A stretch of 59,674 bases of DNA, taken from positions 1-59,674 of IMG/VR virus record IMGVR_UViG_3300025769_000116; one strand, written 5' to 3'. The notes beneath the pieces were generated by a model. It was not told the DNA's origin. It searched no databases and saw only the letters and a program-made list of their open reading frames with translations. The position numbers and the translations under genes were made by a program. Of the stretch, positions 7,324 to 59,641 are shown piece by piece (position 1 is the stretch's first letter; the number at the start of each line of letters is the position of its first letter). Source of the stretch: a virus.

Positions 7324-7331
7324 TATTTATA
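7324..7331 (-). promoter_or_regulatory. T4-type late promoter box
   Basis: TATAAATA on the minus strand 37 bases before the structural gene at 7287. It overlaps the 3' end of iscU. Confidence 0.8.
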
Positions 7332-7707
7332 AATGTTTTTTTCTATAGTCTTCTATCGCAGCTTTGATCGCATCTTCTGCAAGGACACTACAGTGGATTT
7401 TGACGGGTGGGAGGGCGAGTTCGTCTGCGATCTCGGAGTTGGTAATACTCCCAGCTTCATCAAGACTGCGACCTTTAACCCATTCGGTAAGAAGGGAGGA
7501 AGATGCGATAGCACTTCCGCATCCGTAGGTTTTAAACCTAGCATCTTCGATAATTCCATCATCATTTACCTTTATTTGCAATTGCATAACATCACCACAA
7601 GCTGGAGCACCAACCATGCCAGTCCCCACATCACTTGCTTCTTTATCCAGCTTACCTACATTGCGTGGATTGCTGTAATGATCCATGACTTGATCAGAAT
7701 ATGACAT
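7327..7707 (-). CDS. iscU: IscU-type iron-sulfur cluster scaffold
   Basis: 126 residues, almost exactly the length of bacterial IscU. All functional residues are present at the same numbers as in E. coli IscU: C37 and D39 (ACGD), C63 (YGCGS), H105 and C106 (KIHCS), plus the LPPVK motif at 99-103 that HscA recognises. It should assemble [2Fe-2S] clusters with host IscS/HscAB and pass them to acceptors. No other isc gene is nearby, so host partners are needed. TAATG-coupled to a small unknown gene upstream. The strong similarity to cellular IscU suggests acquisition from a host. Confidence 0.93.
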   Translation of the reverse strand: MSYSDQVMDHYSNPRNVGKLDKEASDVGTGMVGAPACGDVMQLQIKVNDDGIIEDARFKTYGCGSAIASSSLLTEWVKGRSLDEAGSITNSEIADELALPPVKIHCSVLAEDAIKAAIEDYRKKHL

Positions 7708-55089: not shown

Positions 55090-56019
55090 TTAACCTTTAG
55101 CGAGTTCCTTAAAGATTGACAAATCATCGTCATCATCGTCAATAGAAGGTGACTCACTAGTACTCTCTTGCATACTAGGAGCTTCAGCAGTTTTACCAAG
55201 TGAACTCAAGTCAAGTTCATTATCTTCATCATTTTCAAAGTTATCTTGACTGCGAGAAACCTCAGCTGATTCACCAAGTACTCGATAGAGCTTAGCTTTT
55301 AATTCAGCATAGGTCTTGAAGTTTTTAGGATCAAGCAACTCTTGAAGAGAGTGCTGTTGTTCCCAAATAGATTCAAGGTCGTCATCATCAGCAAGTTGTT
55401 CTGGTGGATCAAACTCAGACTTATCGTAATTAGGATATCCTTCAAACTGTCGAATTTTCAAACGAAAGTTTGCACCTTCCCAGAAATCGAAAGGATTAAC
55501 GGGATTCTCATCTTCAAAAGATGGGTTCATCAAATCATTGAGCTTATCAAAGATTTTTTTGCCAAATGAGTACAAGAATACTTTACCTTCATTCTCAGGC
55601 TTGGCTGAATCTTTAATTACGTAAATGTTTGAAACATACTTGAGTCGTCTCTTTTGCTTACGTGCCTGATCTTTGTCGGAATCAATTCCAGAGTTCCATA
55701 GTTTAGAGTTAAACTCGGAAACAGGATCGTCTTGACCAAGTGTAGTCAAAGAGTTTTCGATATACCATTGACCAGTAGTAGGGCCTTGGAATCCATGATC
55801 CCAAATGCGAACAAACGGCATTTCTTCATTTTTAGGGGCAGGTAGGAAACGAATAATTGCAAACCCATTACCAGCTTTATCGCGAGTAGGTTTCCAAAAC
55901 TTACCTTCGTTTGGATCTGAGTACGAGGACTTAGATGACATTTTATCAAGCTGAGAAGTCAACTTGTCGAGGGACTTATTGCGGTTTTTCTTAAGTGAGG
56001 CAAAATCTGTTTGTGCCAT
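55090..56019 (-). CDS. 32: Single-stranded DNA-binding protein (T4 gp32)
   Basis: 309 residues. SLKKNRNKSLDKL (the basic LAST-like N-terminus), GNGFAIIRFLPAPKNE, QWYIENSLTTLG, ENEGKVFLYSFGKKIFDKLN and the acidic C-terminal tail correspond to T4 gp32. The zinc-binding cysteines of T4 (in WYIEN-C...C-x2-C) are replaced by Ser and Asp/Glu, and the protein has no cysteine, so it is a zinc-free variant. Driven by a consensus promoter inside gp59 and followed by a terminator. Confidence 0.95.
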   Translation of the reverse strand: MAQTDFASLKKNRNKSLDKLTSQLDKMSSKSSYSDPNEGKFWKPTRDKAGNGFAIIRFLPAPKNEEMPFVRIWDHGFQGPTTGQWYIENSLTTLGQDDPVSEFNSKLWNSGIDSDKDQARKQKRRLKYVSNIYVIKDSAKPENEGKVFLYSFGKKIFDKLNDLMNPSFEDENPVNPFDFWEGANFRLKIRQFEGYPNYDKSEFDPPEQLADDDDLESIWEQQHSLQELLDPKNFKTYAELKAKLYRVLGESAEVSRSQDNFENDEDNELDLSSLGKTAEAPSMQESTSESPSIDDDDDDLSIFKELAKG

Positions 56020-56058: not shown

Positions 56059-56664
56059 TCATAACGTAAATCGATCTTTAACGTATTGCTTAAAGCGTTT
56101 TTGATCGTATGTTAGAAAGGGTTTATACTTTCTAGCATATCTAATTATATCACGTGATACGATTTTGTCAACTATTTTTTGATCCCAATAATCAAAAATA
56201 TTCGCATAGGCTGTAATAATAGAAAAAGTTTCAAGTGTAATCTTTCTTTCTACGTACAACCTCATGATGTAAGGATGTTGACCATCCACGGATATAAAGT
56301 TTTCCGAGTAATCATCTCGGAGTTTATTTAAATCAGACTTAAAGTTATGACTCAACGAATCAATTCTTTTTTTCCAATCTAAATAATTTTTTTCTCCCTC
56401 ATCATCGAGTAATTGTCTAATCCATACATTTGGATTACGCAATACATTCGATAATATAAGTTCGAAACAATTTTCTTTTGATGCCAGTTTAGTAAAAAAG
56501 TAAGCATCATTTCTTGTTCTAAACGTCTCGATTGACGCTTTCACTTTACCATTATATTTATGATAATCGTATTGATCTGAACTAAAATGTTTTTTAAGTG
56601 CTAGATATTCTATATAAACATTATAACCCGGATCATTTAACGATGTCGGTGAGGTCCTTTTCAT
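56059..56664 (-). CDS. 59: Helicase loader (T4 gp59)
   Basis: 201 residues, close to T4 gp59 (217). Matching blocks: FSSDQYDYHKYNGKVKAS, RRDAYFF-type segment TRNDAYFFTKLASKEN, and ETFSIITAYANIFDYWD. It binds forked DNA and gp32 and loads gp41. Its 3' end contains the gp32 promoter. Confidence 0.9.
   Translation of the reverse strand: MKRTSPTSLNDPGYNVYIEYLALKKHFSSDQYDYHKYNGKVKASIETFRTRNDAYFFTKLASKENCFELILSNVLRNPNVWIRQLLDDEGEKNYLDWKKRIDSLSHNFKSDLNKLRDDYSENFISVDGQHPYIMRLYVERKITLETFSIITAYANIFDYWDQKIVDKIVSRDIIRYARKYKPFLTYDQKRFKQYVKDRFTL
56144..56171 (-). promoter_or_regulatory. Consensus sigma70 promoter for gene 32, with palindrome
   Basis: TTGACA (56166-56171), 16-bp spacer, TATAAT (56144-56149). 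The spacer contains TATCACGTGATA, a perfect 12-bp palindrome (56148-56159), a possible operator overlapping the -10 box. Confidence 0.85.
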
Positions 56665-56896
56665 CTTTTTTTACCATTTTTAAACCGACGGCTTCTGATC
56701 TAATTTTTTCTTTAAGAATAGAAGACTTTTTTACTACATCTGCGACAGATTCAATTTCAAGATTATTTTTTTCTGCGTATGTAATAAGGGCGTCGATGTA
56801 AGGTACACCACTAGCAATCATTTCTGAAATTGCATGATGAATTTTTTCAGGTGTCATTGAAACTACCATGTCAAATGGATCCTCCCTTTCTTTCAT
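56633..56896 (-). CDS. 33: Late transcription co-activator (T4 gp33-like)
   Basis: 87 residues. VPYIDALITYAEKNNLEIES followed by VADVVKKSSILKEKIRSEA matches the conserved helix block of gp33 homologues in T4-like phages (position, spacing and order). gp33 bridges RNA polymerase and the sliding clamp at late promoters, consistent with TATAAATA boxes across this window. First gene after a strong early promoter; overlaps gp59. Confidence 0.8.
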   Translation of the reverse strand: MKEREDPFDMVVSMTPEKIHHAISEMIASGVPYIDALITYAEKNNLEIESVADVVKKSSILKEKIRSEAVGLKMVKKDEKDLTDIVK

Positions 56897-57020: not shown

Positions 57021-57359
57021 ATGAAATACTTAATTCTTGCAATAGGTGTTTTGTGTATGCTTGCTGCGTGTTCAGTCAAGGCAGGACCATACGTAGAAAT
57101 CAAATCTGAAGTAACATACAAAGATTTTGCTACTACTGATGCAGTCAATCATACTCGTTTCGGATACGAGAAAAAATCACTCACAGGCAGTAACGTGTAC
57201 TTCGAAGCAGGGCACATGACGGGTGGTTCATCTTGGGAAGCAGGATACAAAACTCGTTTGTCCGATACCCTCACCATCAAAGGCAAACTCGAAGGCAAAC
57301 GCGAACGAGGCACGGAAGCAAAGACTAAACTCGAAACAGAGATTCGATTTACTTGGTGA
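57021..57359 (+). CDS. Exported envelope protein, only plus-strand gene
   Basis: 112 residues. Signal region KYLILAIGVLCMLAACSVKA could be read as a lipobox (LAAC, cysteine retained) or as a signal peptide cut before GPY. The rest alternates polar and hydrophobic residues with GSNVYFEAGHMTGGSSWEAG and ends in TEIRFTW, suggesting a small outer-membrane beta-barrel. AAAGGA lies twelve bases before ATG. Divergent from the gp33 promoter region and convergent with the small-gene operon. Confidence 0.65.
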   Translation: MKYLILAIGVLCMLAACSVKAGPYVEIKSEVTYKDFATTDAVNHTRFGYEKKSLTGSNVYFEAGHMTGGSSWEAGYKTRLSDTLTIKGKLEGKRERGTEAKTKLETEIRFTW

Positions 57360-57445: not shown

Positions 57446-57565
57446 TTAAGATACCGCTATCACTAAAAACACTGGTACTACAAATAACGCCAGAGCTAAT
57501 TGGCCAATTGCAATCATTTGATCTTTTTTAGAATCTTGAAAATTGTTGCTCATATACTTTTTCAT
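57446..57565 (-). CDS. Tiny single-pass membrane protein
   Basis: 39 residues: soluble MKKYMSNNFQDSKKDQ then one membrane segment (AIGQLALALFVVPVFLVIAV). Last gene of the operon behind the bilin genes. No known family. Confidence 0.55.
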   Translation of the reverse strand: MKKYMSNNFQDSKKDQMIAIGQLALALFVVPVFLVIAVS

Positions 57566-57581
57566 TAAATTTAGTTATCTC

Positions 57582-57722
57582 CTACAGGTAAGGTGTGAAA
57601 TTATAACCAGCCATGTGGCTGAACGGCATTAATTCTGGGTACATGATGGGACCCAAAAGCCCCATCACACAAGCACTTACTACCAAAAAGGCAAGCGCAG
57701 AATTTCTTAATTTAATTAGCAT
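57582..57722 (-). CDS. Tiny membrane or exported protein
   Basis: 46 residues: basic start MLIKLRNSA, hydrophobic segment LAFLVVSACVMGLLGPIM and a short polar end (SHMAGYNFTPYL). May be a signal-anchored peptide. Three bases downstream of 57726-57953. Confidence 0.55.
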   Translation of the reverse strand: MLIKLRNSALAFLVVSACVMGLLGPIMYPELMPFSHMAGYNFTPYL

Positions 57723-57725
57723 GTC

Positions 57726-57953
57726 TTATTCAGCCGCCTTAGGAGCAGTTACTGTGTAACCTGCCTTTTCCCATTGTTCGAGAGTACGACACACTCTTTT
57801 TTTCATAGGAAGACCAGCAGGTCCACGAACTTCGATACGTGCACAAAACTTTCCATCTTCGGTAAGTTTGGCTGTTTCTTGTACTGCTGGTTGAGGGCTT
57901 GCGCTTGTGGGCAGCGCGATTAAAAGACATACGAATGCAATAATTTTCTTCAT
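57726..57953 (-). CDS. Small exported cysteine-pair protein
   Basis: 75 residues. Signal peptide MKKIIAFVCLLIALPTSAS, then a short domain with FCARIEVRGPAGL and KRVCRTLEQWEKAG. The C...C-x-T-x-x-W pattern resembles small periplasmic proteins of alphaproteobacteria, without known function. AGGAG upstream. Confidence 0.6.
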   Translation of the reverse strand: MKKIIAFVCLLIALPTSASPQPAVQETAKLTEDGKFCARIEVRGPAGLPMKKRVCRTLEQWEKAGYTVTAPKAAE

Positions 57954-58155
57954 TAGAAAACTCCTTAAATATTATACATGGGTTGGGCTCAGTGATTCAG
58001 CAAATCACGGTACATATATATAATGCTTTTTTCATAAGACCGTTAATATTGTGTAAAAAAGTTATAAAATATAGCTCAACTATTATATTCCATTTATGAA
58101 TGGAAAGTATTGGTTCAATAAACACAAGTTATAGATGAGTATGAACCGTTTTTGA

Positions 58156-58845
58156 TCACAATTCTTCGAAGAGAACATTATTGACGTAGTCGTTTTTATC
58201 TTCTTCTGATATACCCATCGATAAAATTGAGCGATGTAATTGTACGTTTTTCTTTTGATTATGGCAATACTTATTTTGAGCTGGTAAAAAATCTTGACCC
58301 ATGTTTCGATAAACTTTTGAGGTAATCCCGTTCATATAGAACGAAACAGAAGTCAATCCTACTTTACAAAATTGTTCAAGCTCATTTTCATTATCAATTC
58401 CACCCGCCGCCACGATGTTTGGTGAAAAGATTTCAAGAGCCCACTCAGGAAGTTCTCTTTCTTTCTTCCAGCTCAGATTAGAAGTTAATCCTGCAAAGTA
58501 TTCCATATAAGAATGATTCTCACTCGAAACCGGCGAGTAGTCCATAAACGACCCGCTAATTTTATTTGGTCCTGAGACAATATCAAATCCAAGGATAGGA
58601 AGATTCATCCAAGGTTGCGGAAACACATTAATGTGTAACAACCAAAGCTTTTTATTTCCTTCTGTTCCTGGTTCAATAATTTTTAAGTGAGCCTTTCTAA
58701 TAGATTCAGATTTCCAAAACTTATCAGTCCAACCATCAAAATGTTTTGTCAGTTTTGGGTTTTCATAGCGAGCAAGATTTTGGTCGAAAATATTTTCGAT
58801 TTCGTTAGATAGCAACCTTAGTCTATTCCAAATCACACTGTCCAT
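58156..58845 (-). CDS. pcyX: Ferredoxin-dependent bilin reductase (PcyX-like)
   Basis: 229 residues. LLHINVFPQPWMNLPILGFDIV aligns with the bilin-binding core of the family: H71 and D88 have the same 17-residue spacing as His88 and Asp105 of PcyA. FMDYSPV and QNKYCHNQKKN (the PcyA-like QxxK-N region) are also present. It would reduce biliverdin IX-alpha made by the heme oxygenase using host ferredoxin. PcyX-type enzymes of oceanic phages are known to make phycoerythrobilin; which bilin this one makes cannot be read from the sequence. Confidence 0.9.
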   Translation of the reverse strand: MDSVIWNRLRLLSNEIENIFDQNLARYENPKLTKHFDGWTDKFWKSESIRKAHLKIIEPGTEGNKKLWLLHINVFPQPWMNLPILGFDIVSGPNKISGSFMDYSPVSSENHSYMEYFAGLTSNLSWKKERELPEWALEIFSPNIVAAGGIDNENELEQFCKVGLTSVSFYMNGITSKVYRNMGQDFLPAQNKYCHNQKKNVQLHRSILSMGISEEDKNDYVNNVLFEEL

Positions 58846-58860
58846 AATATAAGTCTTTTT

Positions 58861-58983
58861 TTAAGCCAATTGTGCTATTGGTACAAACAATCCAAACATG
58901 ATTACACCAATAATGACAATTTCTGCGGCTTGCATATTTTCTGTAGTATTAAGCTTATTTAAAATTTTATTCATTGCTTCCAT
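58861..58983 (-). CDS. Tiny membrane protein between bilin genes
   Basis: 40 residues: amphipathic N-terminal helix MEAMNKILNKLNTTENM then one membrane segment (AAEIVIIGVIMFGLFVPIAQ). Lies between heme oxygenase and bilin reductase in the same direction, 15 bases upstream of the reductase. No chromophore-binding histidine or cysteine, so its link to bilins is unknown. Confidence 0.55.
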   Translation of the reverse strand: MEAMNKILNKLNTTENMQAAEIVIIGVIMFGLFVPIAQLA

Positions 58984-59026
58984 TAATTGTATTTTTTTTC
59001 CTCCGCCGATCAGGCAGTCGTTATAG

Positions 59027-59641
59027 TTAATAGTCGTCATTGTAATCAGACTCGTTTTCGTATTCAGGATCTATGAAACTTGTGATTTCATCTAACCCAT
59101 CTTCTAATCGCCAAAAATCTATTAGCTCATAGAATAATCTTTCAGCAAAGCTGAAACATATTTTGGCCTCTTTTACCATGTCATCATTTAAAAGTTCTCT
59201 GATACCAGCTATGAGATCAGAACGATTCTCGAATTCATACATCAAACCAGAACCGGGTACATTCTTTTTAATAATTTGTCCGCCATGCATATCTCCAAAA
59301 TGCCGAACATATACGTGTGCAATCAAACTTTCATTATCCAGATGACTTAAATGTTCAACGTAATCGTCAACCGAAGGTAAAAAATCTGTAAGCTCTTTTA
59401 AACGATGTTCTGCTTCAAGCTCTTGCAAATCTTCCAGAATAAGAGAAGATCTAAAAACACCCTCTAACTTTAAAGGTAAATCAACAAGCGACTCGAGTGT
59501 TGAGTAAATAATGAGTTGTGAATGTAAATATTTTTGATAAAGCCTTGGATGTATATCTCCATCAATTAATATATTTGCGAACTCAGTTCTCTCAGCATTT
59601 TGATGGTGCTCCCAAGTCAATTCTTTAAGATTGTTAGACAT
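59027..59641 (-). CDS. ho1: Heme oxygenase
   Basis: 204 residues. LKELTWEHHQNAERTEF provides the proximal histidine (H13, as in the E-x-H-x-x-A-E of HO-1). YVRHFGDMHGGQIIKK corresponds to the YxRYLGDLSGGQ distal helix. It opens heme to biliverdin IX-alpha, CO and Fe2+ with electrons from ferredoxin. First gene of the bilin operon; its promoter lies outside the window. Confidence 0.93.
   Translation of the reverse strand: MSNNLKELTWEHHQNAERTEFANILIDGDIHPRLYQKYLHSQLIIYSTLESLVDLPLKLEGVFRSSLILEDLQELEAEHRLKELTDFLPSVDDYVEHLSHLDNESLIAHVYVRHFGDMHGGQIIKKNVPGSGLMYEFENRSDLIAGIRELLNDDMVKEAKICFSFAERLFYELIDFWRLEDGLDEITSFIDPEYENESDYNDDY

Follow-up and report, generated by a model that had tools for sequence, protein, structure and literature searches.

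A putative heme-to-bilin pathway with a Lys-type bilin reductase in uncultured T4-like phages

Introduction

Phages have in the past yielded bilin reductases (FDBRs) with novel activities, PebS and PcyX among them, and the pairing of a phage heme oxygenase (HO) with PcyX or PcyA, also together with alaS, has already been published. When considered from a catalytic point of view, two residues deserve mention: Glu76 is specific to PcyA and required for 18-vinyl reduction (Rockwell et al., PMC10151467), and Asp55 has been called a PcyX-specific catalytic residue (Wegner et al., PMC11480375). Marine myophages are also known to carry a two-piece tmRNA, the type of which need not correspond to the host (PMC9004378).

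The DNA considered here, referred to as the window, is the IMG/VR record IMGVR_UViG_3300025769_000116 (59,674 nt), which is probably a fragment, since it is much shorter than T4-like genomes. A second contig, L002, is 99.95% identical to the window and adds 9.2 kb beyond the HO gene.

Organization and distribution of the cassette

The cassette is encoded on the minus strand and begins with an HO of 204 aa (59027..59641; PF01126, E 2.2e-19; PDB heme oxygenases, E 2.4e-10). It is followed by MP40, a single-TM peptide known from its translation (58861..58983), for which an ATG behind GGAGG gives 40 aa, the longest frame beginning at 59040, and by an FDBR of 229 aa (58156..58845; PF05996, E 1.1e-19; PcyX structure 5owg, E 2.5e-39), termed Lys-type because of K55, which accompanies H71 and D88. 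Downstream on the same strand lie three tiny genes, which encode a 75-aa secreted protein with two Cys and a CRTxxxWxxAGY motif, defined from a 12-member alignment (family A; 57726..57953), a 46-aa single-TM peptide with a Pro-rich C-terminal tail, recognized by alignment, dN<dS and recurrence (family B; 57582..57722), longer members of which contain QHHxExC, and a 39-aa single-TM peptide read from an SD-led ORF and only loosely placed with family C (57446..57565). This module is adjoined on the plus strand by the gene of a 112-aa outer-membrane barrel-like protein, Phage_OMP (57021..57359; PF24653, E 4.2e-11). The minus strand then continues with a gp33-like late-transcription coactivator, which is the fixed downstream landmark of the locus (56633..56896; PF16805, E 1.9e-12), the gp59 helicase loader (56059..56664; phrog_269, E 3.3e-49) and the gp32 ssDNA-binding protein (55090..56019; phrog_224, E 1.1e-116).

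An earlier note on this DNA had listed the HO, the 40-aa membrane peptide, an FDBR with H71/D88 and three tiny exported or membrane proteins, and all of them are present on the minus strand where that note had placed them. Its further claim that they form one transcription unit holds in part: the HO, MP40 and FDBR genes are tightly packed, but a gap of ~200 bp separates the FDBR from the secreted protein, and a promoter scan performed no better on the real sequence than on shuffles. This gap is of similar length across relatives, but a search for a conserved RNA in it gave no Rfam match.

Among the best 80 of 454 gp59 relatives, the HO-FDBR pair lies upstream of gp33-gp59-gp32 in all 21 distinct relatives whose sequence extends 3.5 kb or more upstream of gp33. 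The near-core status of the bilin pathway applies to this clade and not to T4-like phages at large. The same site beside gp33 is occupied in three loci with a PcyX-type enzyme (L024, L025 and L044), and thus its use may predate the split between the Lys and PcyX types. The gp41 and gp32 proteins are about 50–61% identical to those of isolates, none of which is close, and a search of the cassette DNA against isolate phages gave no match. A bacterial origin was considered for four matches in genome contigs and rejected, since gp33/gp59 lie next door and the contigs are therefore phage contigs within MAGs. One MAG, Rhodobacteraceae Water_Bin34, has several different T4-like phage contigs (L121, L123 and L124) binned together, and eight permuted tmRNA matches occur in the bin. 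An FDBR is found in at most three of 385 Alphaproteobacteria, one of the three being a MAG with phage contigs.

The reductase and its partner oxygenase

Both enzymes score above the curated Pfam cut-offs and match solved structures, and the assignment of the reductase to the FDBR family is based on the PF05996 profile match together with the FDBR fold. The AlphaFold2 model of the latter has a mean pLDDT of 95 and superposes on PcyA-biliverdin with a Z of 25 and on PcyX with a Z of 22 (1.6 A over 175 residues); in this model K55, H71 and D88 are located on strands 49–57, 68–76 and 84–91, respectively.

For comparison, FDBRs were taken from viral contigs, from loci found independently via gp59, and from reference PcyX, PcyA and PebS sequences. 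In an alignment of 46 FDBRs, H71 and D88, the equivalents of PcyA His88 and Asp105, are invariant. The position of PcyX Asp55 and PcyA Glu76 is occupied by Lys, within the motif HLK, in 44 of the 44 distinct sequences of the T4-like group to which the window belongs, with the His and Asp retained, whereas the remaining sequences of the table, the two references included, have Asp (13), Glu (3) or Asn (1) there. Within the clade the Lys is invariant although its members drop to 39% identity. In the IQ-TREE phylogeny the Lys group (45 rows) forms one clade (99/97), recovered in 100% of bootstrap trees, which is sister to the PcyX group with its Asp, Glu or Asn (98/93), while cyanophage PcyA and PebS fall outside.

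The earlier note had called the enzyme PcyX-like and proposed a phylogeny against PcyA, PebS and PcyX as a check. Now that this tree is available, the reductase stays within the FDBRs as the sister clade of PcyX; its nearest solved relative by sequence is indeed PcyX, with 34% identity between the window enzyme and 5owg, but it groups beside the PcyX clade rather than in it, and Lys replaces Asp55. Nor can it be ascribed to PcyA, because a Lys stands at the position of Glu76, or to PebS, the outgroup, which has Asn at the His88 position where the window has His. In the literature examined no description of the Lys-type clade was found, and a Lys-type sequence may be present in the alignments of Ledermann 2016/2018. 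Since Lys55 takes the place of the acid that PcyA needs for 18-vinyl reduction, phycocyanobilin is an unlikely product. Judged from sequence, known relatives are no safe guide to the product of the Lys-type enzymes; either phycoerythrobilin or the product of a two-electron reduction would be likelier than phycocyanobilin, and Lys55 could also be neutral for product choice.

The HO of the window belongs to its family by the PF01126 match, the proximal His13 (HQNAE) and a distal helix reading G116-D-M-H119-G-G-Q122, in which His replaces the Ser of GDLSGGQ enzymes. In a motif table over the relatives, the distal helix of every HO with a Lys-type partner reads G-(D/E)-x-H-G-G-Q. Where the partner is of the PcyX type, the position of this His is occupied by Ser, Tyr, Ala or Phe, with the exception of L023, whose partner FDBR is of the Asn type and whose HO has the His too. 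A crude pattern lists the FDBRs of L009 and L072 as N in this table, whereas the FDBR alignment shows Lys in both. The distal-helix His, a change close to the heme, appears to be specific to the clade and correlated with the reductase type.

Host signals

The earlier note had described a T4-like phage with a two-enzyme heme-to-bilin pathway and without photosystem genes or a cyanobacterial host signal, and this description, in which the pathway is predicted from sequence, is supported. No photosystem families occur in the window, and Photo_RC has no match either there or in eleven other records, a 170-kb contig included. An alphaproteobacterial-type permuted (two-piece) tmRNA lies directly upstream of the HO in L002, L005 and L008 and nearby in other relatives; it is located just past the right end of the window (L002 8871-9180) and is also present in L104, L114, L123 and L124. 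The tags that these tmRNAs encode vary, e.g. ANDNVYDMPMAA and ANDDVYDMEYALAA. Taken together, the tmRNA type and the absence of photosystem genes suggest a non-cyanobacterial, probably alphaproteobacterial host. By tmRNA similarity the top matches cover no more than about 70 bp (83%) and lie in genomes of 1.2–1.5 Mb, which resolves no genus.

A short ORF upstream of the HO with a conserved CICN...CGKC pattern (L002 8783-8944; L008 2973-3134) was considered as a Bfd-like ferredoxin and rejected, as it gave no Fer2_BFD HMM match; its 3' part overlaps the 5' end of the tmRNA gene. No phage ferredoxin (Fer2) above cut-off is encoded in the Lys-type contigs, and there is one in pelagiphage Mosig.

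Mini-proteins around the bilin genes

SD-led small TM ORFs are about 20 times as dense in the cassette gaps (0.50/kb) as elsewhere on the same strand (0.023/kb), as counted by a finder with fixed thresholds that misses some of them, those of the window among them. Those tiny ORFs that have homologues show dN<dS in pairwise comparisons, several of which are close to saturation at synonymous sites; by this measure, purifying selection apparently conserves the downstream tiny proteins. MP40, which also shows dN<dS, is matched at the corresponding site by homologues in L004/L005 and L007/L008 alone (three lineages in all); most relatives are without it, and the HO and FDBR genes often abut or overlap there. 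The tiny ORFs to which the earlier note drew attention therefore fare differently in related phages, where the downstream ones recur with dN<dS and MP40 is confined to the closest relatives. As for the 39-aa peptide, no close homologue occurs beyond near-identical contigs, and peptides of similar size are found at the same place in relatives. In L210 (1166-1382), a small TM peptide unrelated to MP40 lies between the HO and a PcyX-type (Asp) FDBR.

Family A is represented by 50 loci in viral contigs, about 16 of which have no HO or FDBR nearby. Among ten records without these genes adjacent, nine lack an FDBR throughout contigs of up to 146 kb; in the tenth (the L194 contig, G405), a module of families A and B lies 10 kb from a PcyX-type FDBR. 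Away from the bilin genes, family A is again often followed by tiny TM peptides, for instance at a site flanked by hsp20 and DNA polymerase; a barrel resembling Phage_OMP comes after the family A protein in L207. L199, L200, L194 and L207 are loci of this kind, in which family A and tiny TM peptides recur away from bilin genes. That the secreted protein might be a host gene was considered and discarded, with one marginal match among 385 Alphaproteobacteria. Because family A and the TM peptides occur in phages that lack HO and FDBR, the simplest reading is that they form a mobile, independent envelope module and not a pigment anchor.

Proposed function and alternative explanations

Taking these observations together, we consider it probable that the locus represents a phage heme-to-bilin pathway with a Lys-type FDBR, directed at net bilin production, in which the mini-proteins are a separate envelope module. 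HO would open heme to biliverdin, which the Lys-type FDBR would then reduce with electrons presumably drawn from host ferredoxin, the D88/H71 pair serving in proton transfer. That larger relatives additionally carry a gene for 5-aminolevulinate synthase (AlaS) suggests that the purpose, in a host that is not a cyanobacterium and probably an alphaproteobacterium, would be net bilin synthesis and not just the liberation of iron. AlaS is found with 546–570 bits in each of the three Lys-type contigs that are at least 72 kb long (G002, G003 and G004, the contigs of L009, L070 and L114), tens of kb from the cassette, the match in G004 containing two in-frame stops, and it is absent from the window's own 59.7-kb record, a fragment. 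In a phage that combines AlaS with HO and FDBR, the iron built into heme would be freed again, leaving bilin as the net output, and thus a dedicated flux from ALA via heme and biliverdin to bilin is plausible. The downstream secreted and membrane mini-proteins would merely share the neighbourhood.

The same cycling of iron weighs against the alternative in which HO would draw on host heme as a source of iron for the Fe-S proteins of the phage and for ribonucleotide reductase (RNR), the FDBR doing no more than dispose of biliverdin. This idea, which is discussed in PMC11480375, is in line with several genes: the window encodes an RNR and a NifU_N/IscU-like Fe-S scaffold protein (7327-7707, minus strand), and about 13 distinct relatives have an IscA-like gene beside the HO or between the FDBR and gp33 (e.g. 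L104 3058-3384), so that the NifU and IscA-like genes also fit iron recycling. However, IscA is absent from most loci, that of the window included, whereas no distinct locus with enough DNA lacks an FDBR, and we regard iron salvage as unlikely. Exploitation by the phage of a host photoreceptor, either a phytochrome or a bilin-binding globin, with the bilin as its chromophore would find precedents in the PcyA of phage CB_2, which makes PCB that assembles with Cph1, and in a Bradyrhizobium island linking hemO, pcyA, alaS and bphP (PMC11480375), but no photoreceptor gene was seen beside the cassette, which leaves this use of the bilin quite improbable. Least probable is a tethering of HO, FDBR or bilin to the membrane by the mini-proteins, a role for which the earlier note had suggested the membrane peptides. 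The strong local enrichment of small TM ORFs speaks for it, as do the TM peptide that separates the two bilin genes in the closest relatives and the unrelated one in L210; against it, the downstream set stands at other loci in phages without HO/FDBR, and most Lys-type loci, lacking MP40, have no TM peptide between the two genes.

Net bilin production by the cassette could also proceed through an ordinary PcyX function, in which phycoerythrobilin is made as by PcyX and Lys55 is a neutral swap of a residue that is not strictly needed. We take this as a serious possibility, albeit not the expected one. PcyX is the closest solved relative by sequence and the sister clade, D88/H71 are retained, and Asp55 of PcyX is reportedly perhaps dispensable (Ledermann 2018). 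On the other hand, the Lys is invariant across a deep clade whose sister varies between Asp, Glu and Asn, and the naming of Asp55 as a PcyX-specific catalytic residue (PMC11480375) runs counter to its dispensability.

The Lys-type FDBRs may tentatively be viewed as a separate class with a product or regiochemistry unlike that of PcyA and PcyX, matched to a distal-His HO; together with AlaS they may make up a dedicated, near-core bilin pathway of a large T4-like clade that is uncultured and infects non-cyanobacterial, probably alphaproteobacterial hosts. A deep clade with an invariant Lys in place of the PcyA/PcyX acid offers a natural test of how the family sets product choice, and a pathway near-fixed in phages of hosts that seemingly do not use phycobilins makes the role of phage bilins outside cyanobacteria testable.

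Comparison with known systems

With PcyX (5owg; pelagiphage Mosig and oceanic metagenomes), the window shares a phage FDBR adjoining a phage HO, the fold, the His and Asp and 33–34% identity; it differs in that its FDBR belongs to the sister clade, with Lys for Asp55, and is partnered by an HO with a distal His. Moreover, the cassette lies upstream of gp33, whereas that of Mosig is found beside neck genes. PcyA of alphaproteobacteria, cyanobacteria and phage CB_2 has the same fold and the His88/Asp105 pair whose equivalents occur here, but the window FDBR is without a Glu76 equivalent and only 22% identical to PcyA of P-SSM4, and cyanophage PcyA is placed outside in the tree. The valaS-hemO-pcyA/X cassettes (Wegner 2024, PMC11480375) combine the same three functions that the larger relatives hold; in the latter, however, the cassette is broken, with AlaS tens of kb away, the FDBR is of the Lys type, and the T4-like clade is one without isolates. 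Finally, the two-piece tmRNA of the marine myophages Melnitz and Mosig (PMC9004378) is likewise an alpha-type permuted tmRNA upstream of the late-transcription coactivator, whereas here the HO-FDBR pair sits between the tmRNA and the coactivator.
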